Source of the DNA: Paenibacillus kribbensis
GTDB lineage: Bacteria; Bacillota; Bacilli; Paenibacillales; Paenibacillaceae
Direction: 5' to 3'
DNA length: 64,000 nucleotides
Assembly (NCBI RefSeq): GCF_002240415.1
Contig: NZ_CP020028.1
Location: 2,691,501-2,755,500, forward strand
Part shown: in pieces, positions 58,050-62,724 of the stretch
Layout: each line of letters starts with the position of its first letter
Position numbering within the stretch: position 1 is the first letter of the stretch
The notes under the pieces: generated by a model
Told to the model about the DNA's origin: nothing
Database searches by the model: none
What the model saw: the letters and a program-made list of their open reading frames with translations, nothing else
Translations under genes and position numbers: made by a program

Positions 58050-58800
58050 AATGTGGATTGTCAACAGTAAATCAAACAACTTTTTTAAGGGCTACATGGC
58101 GATATTGAATAGGCGTCATATATCCTAATGTTCCATGAATGCGATGTTGGTTAAACCAATTGACGTAATCGTATAATTCCAGTTCCCAATGACGAAGGCT
58201 CTGGAAGCTCATTTGGTTCACGAACTCCGTTTTCATGATTTTATAGGTGGCTTCAGCCACGGCGTTGTCATACCGACAGCCTTTTATACTCACTGATCGG
58301 CCGATTTCAAACATCTTTAGAAGTCCATCTATCATTTGATTTTTAAACTCGCTGCCCCGGTCGGTATGAAACCACCGAATCTAGCGCAAATCCCCCTGCA
58401 CCGTGGCAAAAGCACGGGAAATCAGAGCAGCGTCCTTCTTCGGGCCCGCACTATAGCCAATGATCTCTCGATTAAATAAATCAACCAGCACGCAGATGTA
58501 ATGCCAACGATTTTGGACTTTTACGTAAGTCAGATCGCTGACGACGAATCGCTTGGCTTCGGTTTGGTCAAAATTACGATTTAGGACATTAGCCGTGGCG
58601 GCCTCGTTACAAGCGGTTTTATGCGGCTTATACTGCGCCACCGTGTACGTGGAGACCACCCCCTGCTCCTTCATAATCCGACTAATTCGGTGCCTGGACA
58701 CGACTTCCACTGCTTACGGGCTTCCAGTCCCAAGCCATGCTTTGGCTGAACATAAATATGGTCCATACGCCCATGGCCAGTTATATTTTTCCACATAACT
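58050..58800 (-). mobile_element. IS3-type element remnant
   Basis: Covers the broken OrfB and upstream remnants (HGLGLEARKQ). No intact OrfA and no clear second terminal repeat, so the element is inactive. Confidence 0.6.
58072..58710 (-). pseudogene. IS3 family transposase OrfB, broken
   Basis: Two in-frame pieces. The first (58710-58381) has HRISRIMKEQGVVS and the first Asp in VVSDLTYVKVQNRWHYICVL; the second (58335-58072) has DNAVAEATYKIMKTEFVNQM with the last Glu and the YVNWFNQHRIHGTLGYMTP end. An in-frame TAG at about 58382 interrupts them, between R and WFHTDRGSEF where the second Asp lies. The N-terminus is missing. It belongs to the IS150 subgroup. Confidence 0.85.
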
Positions 58801-59069: not shown

Positions 59070-59246
59070 CTATTTATTATGTAAATGCCATTCTGCATAA
59101 TTTGATGATCGTTCCCCCGACAAAAAGCGCCGAACCTCCTCGATGGATATCCCCGCCTCCTTGGCCATAGCGAGCAGAACCACCCATTCAGGATCGATTT
59201 CCCCAGGGGACCGATCACGAACAATAACCTGGGCGGACTTTTCCAA
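59070..59246 (-). CDS. sinI: SinI-family anti-repressor
   Basis: About 58 residues. The SinI dimerisation segment DPEWVVLLAMAKEAGISIEE followed by VRRFL is clear and matches the C-terminal segment of the SinR encoded at 62389 (DPEWWELMQEAMASGVSKKE). Such proteins bind SinR and block its DNA binding. The start is TTG 59246, with AGGAGGGG 9 bases upstream; an ATG at 59300 would lie inside the riboswitch region. The gene is divergent from the matrix operon and ends in a good terminator. The leader holds a candidate c-di-GMP aptamer. A SinR-type half site overlaps its -10. Confidence 0.85.
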   Translation of the reverse strand: MEKSAQVIVRDRSPGEIDPEWVVLLAMAKEAGISIEEVRRFLSGERSSNYAEWHLHNK

Positions 59247-59284
59247 CAGCAATCCCCTCCTAAGATCATTATTTGGGCTTGTCC

Positions 59285-59375
59285 CGGGTAGACCAGCCAT
59301 CCTAGTATCTCTACCTTAGATCTGGGACTTTGTGCCCCTGCTTTCCGGGCAGGTTTACCCTTTGCTGGTGCTATA
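59285..59375 (-). ncRNA. Candidate c-di-GMP-I (GEMM-I) riboswitch in the sinI leader
   Basis: On the minus strand the leader reads, in order, ACCAGC (P1), AGGGTAAACC, a CCTGC/GCAGG hairpin with a CCGGAAA loop, GGCACAAAGTCCC, CTAAGGTA, TACTAGGATG and GCTGGT (P1 partner), then CTACC. Every conserved block of c-di-GMP-I aptamers is present in the right order and spacing (GGCAAACC, GNRA-type hairpin, ACGCAAAGCC, CTAAGG, TACTATGATGGC). GGG with UCCC replaces the usual GGC with GCC, which looks like covariation. It ends about 20 bases before the AGGAGGGG site. The core differs from consensus at GCACAAAG (normally ACGCAAAG). Confidence 0.75.
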
Positions 59376-59418: not shown

Positions 59419-59432
59419 GTTCTTATTATAAT
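59419..59432 (-). promoter_or_regulatory. sinI -10 region overlapped by a SinR-like half site
   Basis: The minus-strand TATAAT (59423-59428) overlaps GTTCTTATTATAAT (59419-59432), which resembles the palindromes ahead of the tapA-like gene. No good -35 is visible. Confidence 0.45.
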
Positions 59433-59572
59433 GTCCCCGATATGAAAAGTATGTCGCTCTGCGTAGACTAAACAAGCGGATTTCGTGGGAAAAGTTAGCG
59501 TATTTTGTTTATGGATCACATCCCTTGTCAATTACAGTAAAAAAAATGATGCAAGTCACAAAACAAGATTTT

Positions 59573-59588
59573 GTTCTTAAAAAAGAAC
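59573..59588. promoter_or_regulatory. SinR-type box 1
   Basis: GTTCTTAAAAAAGAAC is a perfect inverted repeat built from two GTTCTT half sites, the known SinR recognition unit. Confidence 0.75.
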
Positions 59589-59645: not shown

Positions 59646-59661
59646 GTTCTTTATTAAGAAT
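59646..59661. promoter_or_regulatory. SinR-type box 2
   Basis: GTTCTTTATTAAGAAT has the same 16-base layout with one mismatch in the second half. Confidence 0.7.
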
Positions 59662-59725: not shown

Positions 59726-59741
59726 GTTCTTAATAACGAAC
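59726..59741. promoter_or_regulatory. SinR-type box 3
   Basis: GTTCTTAATAACGAAC, about 17 bases downstream of a TATATT that may be the -10 of the matrix operon. The three boxes are 73 and 80 bases apart. Confidence 0.7.
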
Positions 59742-59787: not shown

Positions 59788-60957
59788 CTGCGAAGATCCC
59801 GAACTGACGTGATCCGCAAACTGCGCAAAAAACGAAAGAAACAAACTATGGTTAAATTGCTACAATCCGGATTGATCCTTTCTACCTTGCTATTGTGGAC
59901 CTCCCAGCAAGTCGGCACCACTTTCGGAGGATTCACCAGCGGACACGAGGATAATTTGGAAATTAAGGCTTGCCGGGTATTCCCCAGCCAAATCGAAAGC
60001 CAACTTTCGCTGTTGGCCGAACACCTCGAACGGGCCGCTTCTTTAAAAGGAAGATTGATGGGCGCAAGCGGATTCGAGGTCAGCAGCCGGTTGGAGGAGG
60101 CCGCGGCCGACCTGTCGGTGCGAATCGGTGAATTGAACGCCATGATTCAGCAGTTGGAACAGCAAAAGGCCTTGAATCAGTCCATTTGGCAGGAACTGCT
60201 TCAGGAACTAGCCTCCTCCTCCGCGCTGATTCATGAACTGCTAACCTCGCTGAACGAGCTGGAGCCGAATTGCGCCAATCTGTCGCAAACGACGCTGCTG
60301 GACCGCATCACCGACCTTTTGAAGCGGCACGGAATGCTTTCTGATCCGTTAAGCGGGACGCTGCAAGAGATCCTGAACTACTTGCGTTCCGTCCATCAAT
60401 TAGGATTGATGACGTCCAACAGCATTGAGGCCGATAGCTATGCAGCCTTTGCCTTCGCCCAACCTTTCGATGGCCGGATCGCTGTCGATGGAGACCCAGT
60501 CGGAGGAGAGCTGCTCGTTTACTTTGAAAGCGTGCAGGCCTCCCTGCAGTCGGCCATAGCAGGTCTGACCGCCGACATCTCCAGTCTGGAGGCGCAGAGA
60601 GCGCAGCTGTTGACGAAGGCGGAAGCGCAGCGGCTGGCGAAAATCGAACGGCTGAAGAAGCATCATAAAGAGCAAGCCAAACAAGAAGAGCAAGCCGGAG
60701 AGGATGAAACGGCAGCTCCGGACGAGACCGAGAACCCGAACGACGGCAAAACGCCTCCGCCGGGAGACGAACAACCGGCAAAGGGTGAAACGCCTGCCGA
60801 TGGGGAGAACCCGACGGTTGGCGAGACGGGCGGCGGGGATGTACGGACTTCTGCGGATGGCGACGACGACGCGGGCGAAAATTCCTCCTCCGCTGGAGAT
60901 TCCGCCGATGCCGATACCGCCCCTTCTTCTGCCAATGATCCGAAAGGCGGTGAATAA
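59788..60957 (+). CDS. TapA-like matrix protein, coiled coil with acidic tail
   Basis: About 389 residues. N-terminal basic stretch and a hydrophobic segment (LLQSGLILSTLLLWTSQ), then VGTTFGGFTSGHEDNLEI, typical of the DUF4047/TapA-like proteins next to sipW. Residues 60-290 are helical and coiled-coil; the last 100 are very acidic, Pro/Gly-rich and probably disordered. It probably anchors or nucleates TasA fibres. The AAAGGAGGA site is 7 bases before an in-frame CTG (59788), the most likely start; a GTG at 59809 is too far. First gene of the matrix operon. Confidence 0.75.
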   Translation: MRRSRTDVIRKLRKKRKKQTMVKLLQSGLILSTLLLWTSQQVGTTFGGFTSGHEDNLEIKACRVFPSQIESQLSLLAEHLERAASLKGRLMGASGFEVSSRLEEAAADLSVRIGELNAMIQQLEQQKALNQSIWQELLQELASSSALIHELLTSLNELEPNCANLSQTTLLDRITDLLKRHGMLSDPLSGTLQEILNYLRSVHQLGLMTSNSIEADSYAAFAFAQPFDGRIAVDGDPVGGELLVYFESVQASLQSAIAGLTADISSLEAQRAQLLTKAEAQRLAKIERLKKHHKEQAKQEEQAGEDETAAPDETENPNDGKTPPPGDEQPAKGETPADGENPTVGETGGGDVRTSADGDDDAGENSSSAGDSADADTAPSSANDPKGGE

Positions 60958-60960
60958 GTT

Positions 60961-61545
60961 ATGCGGATTCGAAAATGGTTGAGAAATGCGCTGACGTTTC
61001 TGATGGCGGCTGCCTTTATTACCGTGGCCGGCTCCGTCGTCATGTCGAAAATGTCCGGCAGCGAACCAAATTTCTACGGTTATCAGTTGAGAACGGTGTT
61101 GTCCGGCTCGATGGAGCCTTCCATACTTACCGGTTCCATCGTGGCCATTAAGCCCGGAGGCGATATGACCCGATTTACCGCTGGCGATGTCATCACCTTC
61201 CGGGCGGACGAAAAGAAGCTGATTACCCACCGCATCGTCGAAGTAACCCGCAATAAGCTAACCGGTCAGCTCCTTTACCGGACCAAGGGAGACAACAACG
61301 ATGCCGCCGACCTGGAGCCGGTTGATCCGGCCAATGTCACCGGTGTTTACACCGGCTTTACCGTCCCTTACGTAGGATACGTTCTCAACTTCGCCGGAAC
61401 GAAATTGGGGAACGTCACACTGTTGATCATCCCGGGGGTCCTTTTGTTCCTGTATGCCTTAGCGTCCTTATGGAAAGCCATTTCGGCGCTGGAAGACAAG
61501 AAGTCAGACCCGAACGTATCCCAACCGGACACCAAAACTCCATAA
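60961..61545 (+). CDS. sipW: ER-type signal peptidase I (SipW)
   Basis: About 194 residues. One N-terminal and one C-terminal membrane segment. Ser in VLSGSMEPSILTGS and His in ITHRIVEV form the Ser-His dyad of the archaeal/eukaryotic S26B type, unlike the Ser-Lys dyad of other bacterial type I peptidases. It processes TapA and TasA. Three bases separate it from the tapA-like gene, so they are cotranscribed. Confidence 0.92.
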   Translation: MRIRKWLRNALTFLMAAAFITVAGSVVMSKMSGSEPNFYGYQLRTVLSGSMEPSILTGSIVAIKPGGDMTRFTAGDVITFRADEKKLITHRIVEVTRNKLTGQLLYRTKGDNNDAADLEPVDPANVTGVYTGFTVPYVGYVLNFAGTKLGNVTLLIIPGVLLFLYALASLWKAISALEDKKSDPNVSQPDTKTP

Positions 61546-61644: not shown

Positions 61645-62238
61645 ATGGGGATCAAAAAGACTTTGGGTATTGGGGTAGCCGCCGCAGCGCTTGGATTGTC
61701 TTTGATCGGCGGAGGCACGTTCGCTTACTTTAGCGATTCCGTGGAAACGACCGGCACGTTCGCCGCAGGCACCTTGGATCTCAACGCCGATCCGACGGCG
61801 ATCATTGACGTGGGCACCCTCAAACCGGGGGATTTCGCAATCCGCACGTTCAAACTGAAAAACGAAGGTACGCTCGACATCTCCAAGGTATTGCTGAAAA
61901 CGACCTATACGGTTACGAATAAGCCGGGCGCCCCTGAAAACGTGGATGACTTCGGCAAACATGTCATCGTTAGATTTTTGAAGAACATCGACAAACAGGA
62001 AACCGTCATTTACCAAACCTCGCTATATGATCTGCAAAATCTAGCCCCTGACGCCGTGGAGAACAAATGGGTGGCCTGGTTCGAAGAGCACGGGGGCCTG
62101 AAAGCCGGCGATACCGACGACCTGGTCGTCAAGTTCGAATTCAAGGATAACGGTCAGGATCAAAACGAGTTCCAAGGTGACGCTTTGAATCTGAAATGGA
62201 CATTCGAAGCGAAGCAAGGCGCAGGAGAAGCCAAATAA
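61645..62238 (+). CDS. tasA: TasA family amyloid-like matrix protein
   Basis: About 197 residues. Signal peptide GVAAAALGLSLIGGGTFA with the SipW cleavage at the Ala, then YFSDSVETTGTFAAGTLDLN, the camelysin/TasA N-terminus. NEGTLDISKVLLKTTY, and DDLVVKFEFKDN with ALNLKWTFEAKQ near the end, are family features. It is the main fibre protein of the biofilm matrix. GGGAGG precedes ATG 61645. Shorter than B. subtilis TasA (261), within the TasA/CalY range. Confidence 0.92.
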   Translation: MGIKKTLGIGVAAAALGLSLIGGGTFAYFSDSVETTGTFAAGTLDLNADPTAIIDVGTLKPGDFAIRTFKLKNEGTLDISKVLLKTTYTVTNKPGAPENVDDFGKHVIVRFLKNIDKQETVIYQTSLYDLQNLAPDAVENKWVAWFEEHGGLKAGDTDDLVVKFEFKDNGQDQNEFQGDALNLKWTFEAKQGAGEAK

Positions 62239-62388: not shown

Positions 62389-62724
62389 ATGGCAGAACGT
62401 ATTGGCGACCGCATCCAAAAAATCCGCCAGGATCGGGGGTATTCCTTGTCCGAGCTTGCGGATAAAGCGGATGTGGCAAAATCCTACCTGAGCAATGTCG
62501 AACGAAATATTCAATCGAATCCTTCCATTTCCTTTATCGAGAAAATTGCCGATGCTTTAACCGTTTCGATCCACCTGCTCTTGTACGGCGACCGCCCTGC
62601 GGTGGACCTGCTTGACCCGGAATGGTGGGAGCTGATGCAGGAAGCAATGGCTTCGGGCGTCAGCAAAAAAGAGTTCAAGGACTTCCTCGAATACCAGAAG
62701 TGGAAAATGGGACAAAAGGAATAA
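62389..62724 (+). CDS. sinR: SinR, biofilm master repressor
   Basis: About 111 residues, as in B. subtilis. HTH domain (IGDRIQKIRQDRGYSLSELA, VAKSYLSNVERN) followed by a SinI-type dimerisation domain (DPEWWELMQEAMASGVSKKE, then FKDFLEYQKW). TATAAT (near 62345) and AAGGGCG precede it. The promoter is separate from tasA, behind the tasA terminator. It should bind the GTTCTT boxes upstream of the tapA-like gene and be titrated by SinI. Confidence 0.9.
   Translation: MAERIGDRIQKIRQDRGYSLSELADKADVAKSYLSNVERNIQSNPSISFIEKIADALTVSIHLLLYGDRPAVDLLDPEWWELMQEAMASGVSKKEFKDFLEYQKWKMGQKE

Follow-up and report, generated by a model that had tools for sequence, protein, structure and literature searches.

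The sinI-like gene at 59070..59246 (minus strand) of the window, i.e., of the whole 64 kb stretch of DNA analysed here, raises the question whether its leader holds a c-di-GMP riboswitch and, if so, what such an RNA would do to the SinI-SinR matrix switch. Our preferred answer, to which we assign a probability of roughly three in four, is that a class I c-di-GMP riboswitch in the sinI leader controls the translation of SinI and in this way lifts SinR off the matrix operon.

A cmscan run over the whole window places a c-di-GMP-I (GEMM-I, RF01051) riboswitch aptamer in the sinI leader at 59284..59369 on the minus strand. The match, read from 59369 to 59284, covers the model completely (1-87) with 53.0 bits at a gathering cut-off of 35 (E-value 1.6e-07). 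It is the sole Rfam match at the gathering threshold within the 64 kb, and the same scan gave no match of RF01786 (c-di-GMP-II) within the window. A sequence-only reading of the stretch had proposed such a riboswitch and named a covariance-model search as a check; RF01051 was indeed returned above its gathering cut-off, with a gene of the SinI family PF08671 downstream. Our class I model R1 scores the aptamer with 88.3 bits, the window sequence being one of the 15 training rows of R1. From the aptamer end to the ribosome binding site AGGAGGGG of sinI (59254..59261, minus strand, placed by sequence reading; AGGAGG is common in class I relatives) we count 22 nt, close to the 20 or so bases that had been read off beforehand.

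Covariation was assessed on an alignment of 63 class I leaders (58 distinct) to the model, out of a total of 86; those set aside include L098, near-duplicates and leaders that contain long inserts. For the 58 distinct aptamers, two-sided changes are found in 12 of the 20 helix pairs, which is equalled by none of 500 shuffles. The number of cells with two-sided change is 83 compared to 26.3 in shuffles (0/500 as high), while further pair types number 25 compared to 21.7 (9/500 as high). Overall, 93.1% of the helix cells are paired, within an alignment that was fitted to the model and where one pair of the 20 fails to form in 53 of 58 rows. The signal is gone when the partner strand is slid along. 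That is, both the 5' and the 3' hairpin of c-di-GMP-I are backed by covariation among homologues. The columns that we equate with the Vc2 ligand contacts G20, A47 and C92 are G, A and C in 58/58 distinct aligned aptamers including the window copy. The 5' hairpin loop reads CCGGAAA in the window and holds a GAAA tetraloop in many relatives; a GNRA tetraloop on this hairpin is typical of c-di-GMP-I but not strictly required.

With regard to the closing helix P1, the earlier assignment had to be replaced. The pairing of ACCAGC with GCTGGT, which it had suggested, obtains a score of 0.080 that is reached by 318/500 shuffles of the 58 distinct sinI aptamers, i.e., no covariation above shuffles, and the Rfam structure assigns GCTGGT to the 3' hairpin. 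P1 is rather formed by CCAG with CUGG or CUAA around the conserved CC; here, 94% of the cells are paired and the score of 0.159 is reached by none of 500 shuffles, with two P1 pairs showing two-sided change (a number reached by 117/500 shuffles). In some Lederbergia-type leaders CCAG/CUGG becomes UUAG/CUAA. Within the window, the 5' strand of P1 (CCAG) is located at 59365..59368 and covaries in the 58 distinct aptamers with the 3' strand at 59284..59287 (both minus strand), which is CCGG here and CUGG in most relatives according to the P1 covariation and sequence reading. The window P1 thus has four pairs, one of which is an A.C mismatch.

The gene downstream of the aptamer codes for a 58-aa protein with a TTG start that matches PF08671 with 38.6 bits (cut-off 31.4) and shows no DNA-binding domain above cut-off. 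TTG is the start codon in 68/68 distinct class I sinI genes of the Paenibacillaceae, and we infer from the start together with the short length that sinI may be overlooked in annotation. The protein misses the cut-off of the Bacillus SinI equivalog NF046031 of NCBIfam (33.8 vs 80 bits), such that we file it as a SinI-domain protein and not as a Bacillus equivalog. This miss, as well as a Pfam match that spans residues 17-42 only, could speak for a protein directed against some other partner than the SinR next to it. We consider this quite improbable: 5tmx_A and 1b0n_B, both SinI chains of Bacillus, are hit by the SinI profile A3, and wherever SinI occurs in the genus (three genomes), a SinR with the matching C-terminal domain is present as well. 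In the window, this SinR (62389..62724, plus strand) combines an HTH_3 domain (PF01381) with the SinI-type C-terminal domain (PF08671), and its residues 5-111 align over nearly the full length with the SinR chain 1b0n_A (E-value 4e-36). The best named match of the window SinR locus is from Paenibacillus farraposensis with 96% identity.

Between sinI and sinR, and divergent from the former, lies a matrix operon on the plus strand. Its first gene (59809..60957) sits at the tapA position and has no convincing family match, followed by a sipW signal peptidase gene (60961..61545; NF046067 with 237.6 bits, cut-off 190) and a gene for a TasA/camelysin-like matrix protein (61645..62238; PF12389 with 272.6 bits), which misses the TasA equivalog cut-off (96.7 vs 450). 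The region between sinI and this operon contains three GTTCTTNNNNAAGAAC-like palindromes, i.e., the perfect palindrome GTTCTTAAAAAAGAAC at 59573..59588 and two further ones with one mismatch each at 59646..59661 and 59726..59741. We take all three for candidate SinR operators based on the SinR consensus. As a count, such sites carry no evidence and were rejected as such: the window contains 6 sites when up to two mismatches are allowed, compared to 3.99 expected, a value reached by 22 of 100 shuffles and thus at chance level, and the perfect palindrome is the sole exact match in the 5.78 Mb genome compared to 2 for the reversed control pattern. The sole suggestive part is the clustering, i.e., of the 23 genomic sites that deviate from the pattern in no more than one letter (15 in total for the reversed control), 3 fall within 170 bp at this place.

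On the other side, sinI is adjoined by transposase integrase-core fragments (rve matches at 58072-58710, minus strand). Palindromes of the type GTTCTT-NNNN-AAGAAC were also seen in sinI leaders that lack an aptamer. Six such loci (L079, L083, L086, L138, L189 and L192) belong to one genus group, and at least L079, L083, L086 and L138 carry the palindromes, as if SinR governed its own antagonist.

To what extent is the leader kept in relatives? A SinI and a SinR that both exceed their Pfam cut-offs are combined in 3 of 75 genomes of the genus, i.e., the module is rare in the genus, which along with the rve fragments gives a hint of module mobility. In all three, RF01051 is found directly upstream of sinI, with 53.0 bits in the window, 56.4 bits in the close relative G061 and 37.8 bits in G008. 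One further genome (G052) with a PF08671 match of 22.6 bits, below cut-off and in a 553-aa frame, was left uncounted. A search started from the window SinI protein itself yields these 3/75 genomes of the genus only, and the route via SinR is needed for more.

For the family, PF08671 matches are present in 144 of 394 Paenibacillaceae genomes. Via SinR we obtained, among the matches listed for these 144 genomes, a set of 133 sinI genes from 132 genomes; L080, which is a SinR, was dropped from this count, and 16 loci with SinR but without a nearby SinI are uncounted. In G105 and G180 no sinI is found in the stretch examined, despite a PF08671 match. A c-di-GMP aptamer is located directly upstream of 116 of the 133 sinI genes among the matches listed, the kind of leader conservation that the sequence-only reading had named as support. 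We observe class I in 73 cases (including L098 with 32.3 bits, which lacks the 5' half) and class II in 43, while 17/133 of these listed genes have neither class and none has both. Conversely, 43 of the 86 c-di-GMP-II matches in the family lie at most 800 bp from one of the SinR genes listed.

The aptamer classes are distributed by genus group. Class I is found in genus codes g8 (56/56), g1 (3/3) and g3 (14, plus 7 without aptamer); class II in g16 (33, plus 2 without), g9 (4/4), g15 (4, plus 4 without) and g2 (2, plus 1 without); and no aptamer in g4 (1 gene) and g18 (2 genes). An aptamer upstream of sinI thus occurs in seven of the nine Paenibacillaceae genus groups counted. It lies in sense orientation at a narrow distance to the SinI domain codons, namely 73-93 nt for class I and 44-52 nt for class II. 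These counts derive from covariance models that we built (R1 for class I, R2 for class II) and are not independent of the training sets, because 11 of the 15 aptamers used for R1 and all 12 sequences used for R2 are sinI leaders. The Rfam scans are independent: they confirm class I in 14/14 loci and report RF01786 upstream of sinI in 12 of 20 loci scanned (69.4-78.2 bits, gathering cut-off 53.5), with matches in 2/15 loci of a set chosen to be mostly doubtful or negative. In three loci with second c-di-GMP-II aptamers (L045, L047, L054), these stand before genes for long proteins whose starts look, by eye, like signal peptides, which would be a further c-di-GMP output.

Beyond the family, we inspected 80 named SinR loci, many of which stem from the same genomes as those in the family set. 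Class I is present in 44 and class II in one of them. All 44 class I matches share the strand with sinI and 42 are located 50-94 nt before the domain codons; the other two, L254 and L282, have distances of 174 and 327 nt. In these two loci, the match before sinI (L254:4398-4580, L282:4347-4494) is distant from the gene or stretched. In L282, recorded as Bacillus subtilis DE0224, a match of the Bacillaceae-1 RNA (RF01690) starts 18 nt after the aptamer match, and the SinR of this locus is placed with Lederbergia in the tree. Class I is also found before sinI in members of Lederbergia and Thalassobacillus as well as in Virgibacillus ndiopensis and Evansella tamaricis. All 12 loci of the B. subtilis/licheniformis/pumilus group (L263-L272, L276, L279) have a sinI, and none shows a class I or II match at an E-value of 0.01; four of them scanned with Rfam are likewise without a c-di-GMP riboswitch match. 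Together with the 17/133 genes of the family, these 12/12 loci imply that SinI does not require the aptamer.

In a SinR tree with 139 rows, class II has to change state twice, each time enforced by starred branches, and two separate gains are the simplest explanation. Class I is found in both main clades. Most simply, sinI has therefore been given unrelated c-di-GMP sensors more than once, although few alignment columns leave many forks of the tree open. Among the rows labelled 'none', L216 is mislabelled, since it has a class I match of 102.7 bits, and L242 is a locus in which no sinI is found; the class II label is affected by neither. The window module is placed beside rows of another genus group, including P. 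macerans; a horizontal transfer of the module may have occurred.

The observed arrangements also bear on whether sinI is the target at all. For Paenibacillus sp. FSL P4-0081, PMC9943018 proposes that a c-di-GMP-I riboswitch acts in antisense on a SinR-like gene, and 'sinI' does not occur in the main text of that paper. In the same sense, the aptamer of our leader could act on sinR, or on another gene of the opposite strand, with sinI being incidental, and many loci do have convergent sinR and sinI genes, such that the aptamer strand runs towards sinR. Against this, a sinI frame follows directly downstream in sense orientation at the narrow spacing given above for both classes. Furthermore, the window sinR is located 3 kb from the leader, on the opposite strand and upstream of it behind the matrix operon, whereas aptamer, sinI and sinR follow each other in this order on one strand in the loci from Lederbergia, Thalassobacillus and Virgibacillus. 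Close to the switch, sinI is constrained in its synonymous codons (see below), and PMC4342826 places the element of B. methanolicus, according to its table, in the sinI 5'-UTR. We thus regard an antisense action as very improbable. FSL P4-0081 probably has the arrangement found here, seen from the sinR side, as far as the description in that paper goes; it is read there as antisense to SinR, while our data point to sinI in sense.

How would the aptamer control translation? In class II leaders, CCCCAAU or a variant of it forms the P1 3' strand and is complementary to the ribosome-site strand (AUUGGGGG and variants). When this P1 strand is removed, the ribosome site is predicted to be more open on average (0.64 compared to 0.37), and 35 of 41 leaders show an increase (L085 and L108 were left out since the motif was not recognised). 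Shuffling the letters of the strand results in an openness of 0.43, i.e., C-richness accounts for part of the effect. A corresponding pairing is seen for Lederbergia-type class I leaders, where CCUAAAUAC pairs with GUAUUUUAGG beside the ribosome site.

In Paenibacillus class I leaders, CCUGGGGAC pairs with GUCCNNCCAGG within sinI codons 3-7 and thereby encloses both the ribosome site and the TTG start. Here, the predicted openness barely depends on the P1 3' strand (0.54 to 0.60 over 61 class I segments). The measure is uninformative for these leaders because the ribosome site is part of a hairpin loop in many of them, and we therefore used codon constraint instead. In predicted folding of the window segment, the long hairpin is not the minimum-energy fold, and the stability of the whole window leader does not exceed that of shuffles (z of 0.18), which is uninformative as well.

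For the codon statistics, two of the 73 class I genes were excluded (start pattern TTG/ATG unmatched) and identical genes merged, which leaves 68 distinct genes of the Paenibacillaceae. In the window, the sequence with which the P1 3' strand is proposed to pair instead is GTCCGCCCAGG (59228..59238, minus strand). Within this segment, GTCC is kept in 64/68 and CCAGG in 66/68 genes. Synonymous codons are frozen here: Ser4 is TCC in 66/68, Asn5 is AAC in 52/52 and Gln6 is CAG in 66/66 cases. The mean share of the top codon is 0.91 for the N-terminal codons compared to 0.61 for the SinI domain, where the counts are not independent events, given that the leaders are related and mostly from one genus group.

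All three leader designs predict that c-di-GMP locks P1 and switches SinI ON, i.e., the direction is what the complementarities point to. This fits the usual role of c-di-GMP in promoting matrix. An OFF switch, where c-di-GMP lowers SinI and SinR stays active, we deem unlikely: in class II leaders and those of the Lederbergia type, the strand used by P1 can otherwise pair with the ribosome site, which predicts ON, even if both signs do exist among c-di-GMP riboswitches, i.e., a table in PMC7793685 has an 'off' case before a chemotaxis gene and an 'on' case before cbpA of B. thuringiensis.

For the window itself, the P1 3' strand reads CCCGG, which weakens the pairing with the sinI codons. The altered tetraloop and the P1 mismatch raise the possibility that the aptamer of this strain is a decaying relic and that sinI is under promoter control alone. 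Several copies from the SinR clade of the window are damaged: L077 and L098 are without the aptamer's 5' half, the bases before the conserved CC are missing in L185, core letters are changed in L073 (39.9 bits), and G008 is down to the 37.8 bits reported above. In the window, by contrast, the contact positions are intact and the score of 53 bits is near the 56.4 bits of the close relative G061. We consider a relic doubtful, yet the best of the alternatives. The window copy may be weakened, and the general rule of a riboswitch at sinI is safer than the activity of this particular copy.

Upstream of the aptamer, the sequence reads as a promoter. TATAAT at 59425..59430 is the likely -10 element of sinI (sequence reading; the spacing to CGACA in relatives is similar by eye), and CGACA at 59452..59456 (both minus strand) is a partial Spo0A-box-like motif, where the longer TTCGACA is not found in the window. 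TTCGACA/CGACA corresponds to the reverse complement of the Spo0A box (0A box). CGACA is present upstream of 50/61 non-redundant class I leaders (7.7 expected) and the full TTCGACA in only 10/61 (1.3 expected). For class II, TTCGACAAA is found upstream of 36/40 non-redundant leaders at 0.05 expected. As Spo0A-box-like sequences are still upstream, c-di-GMP looks like a second input, i.e., from the sequence, the Spo0A input was probably kept and c-di-GMP added. The suggestion that matrix derepression is wired directly to c-di-GMP is right about the aptamer at sinI, while Spo0A control is probably retained and not replaced.

Taken step by step, a Spo0A-type promoter would produce the leader RNA. 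If c-di-GMP is absent, class II leaders and class I leaders of the Lederbergia type would have the P1 3' strand bound to the ribosome site, while in Paenibacillus class I leaders this strand would, together with codons 3-7, enclose the ribosome site and the TTG start. Bound c-di-GMP would lock P1 such that the start region is freed and SinI translated. SinI would then bind SinR via their common dimerisation domain and derepress the matrix operon with sipW and the tasA-like gene, which runs divergently and carries the SinR-box-like palindromes in its promoter region. Of this chain, the sequences document the aptamer with its conservation and covariation, the target gene, the neighbouring matrix module and the occurrence of both aptamer classes at one gene, whereas ligand binding, the ON direction, the contact of SinI with SinR and the sites for SinR and Spo0A are inferred.

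The genome contains ten GGDEF matches and five c-di-GMP-I aptamers in total. Besides the sinI leader, c-di-GMP-I is found with 71.3 bits in locus L001 (1501-1590, genome position 2540531-2540620) before a gene that begins with an NRPS condensation domain, suggesting, by its position, c-di-GMP control of a peptide synthetase; its position mapped to contact G20 is a C. Two tandem aptamers (L002/L003, 5161929-5162127) precede a gene for a transglutaminase-like protein, and similar closely spaced pairs occur in several genomes of the genus. A further one (L004, 4308061-4308141) is located before a gene for a glycosyl hydrolase family 26/PA14 protein.

Compared to known systems, the window aptamer resembles c-di-GMP-I (RF01051; subfamily RF03167) in sequence, helices, contact positions and score. 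It differs from c-di-GMP-I otherwise in its target, i.e., sinI codes for a protein antagonist of a DNA-binding repressor, such that the RNA signal would be relayed to a transcription circuit, and in that the Paenibacillus sinI coding sequence itself looks like a part of the switch. The c-di-GMP-II aptamer (RF01786), which is found at the same place before sinI in other genera, has a fold unrelated to that of the window. The locus shares with the sinI-sinR/tapA-sipW-tasA system of B. subtilis a SinR with SinI-type domain, a SinI, a SipW, a TasA-like protein and Spo0A-box-like sequences. In contrast to B. subtilis, the window sinI is divergent from the operon, apart from sinR and equipped with an aptamer (0/12 in the B. 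subtilis-type loci).

The sequence-only reading knew of no described riboswitch-SinI circuit. One such case exists: Table 4 of PMC4342826 (BMC Genomics 2015, RNA-seq) lists a putative c-di-GMP riboswitch mapped to the sinI 5'-UTR of Bacillus methanolicus MGA3, i.e., the same kind of wiring. The case consists of a table entry and one sentence, with the class not given and neither a test nor relatives nor a second class. We found no account of the breadth, of class II at sinI or of the switch design in the accessible parts of the open-access literature, including PMC7423583, PMC3971182, PMC12452182 and PMC11720072. Thus, the riboswitch classes are known and the wiring is listed once for one species, while it is widespread here, with two unrelated sensors. 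It is not special to the window; class II takes the same place in other genera.

We think it fairly probable, if less so than the reading of the window locus, that a c-di-GMP output throughout the Bacillales is SinI translation. Two aptamer classes would have been recruited repeatedly, with the P1 3' strand doing the switching (in Paenibacillus class I against the first sinI codons). Spo0A-dependent promoter and RNA would form an AND gate, with B. subtilis being the exception without RNA input.

In B. subtilis, c-di-GMP is not known to be strongly tied to the SinI-SinR matrix switch. A riboswitch at sinI would establish such a link directly, and two unrelated aptamer classes at one gene are strong natural evidence of a selected c-di-GMP input. 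The single table entry for B. methanolicus would turn into a general rule, the published 'antisense' riboswitch near sinR would obtain a simpler reading, and the constrained sinI codons present a directly testable switch. SinI would thus become the meeting point of Spo0A and c-di-GMP in seven of nine Paenibacillaceae genus groups as well as in several genera of the Bacillaceae.
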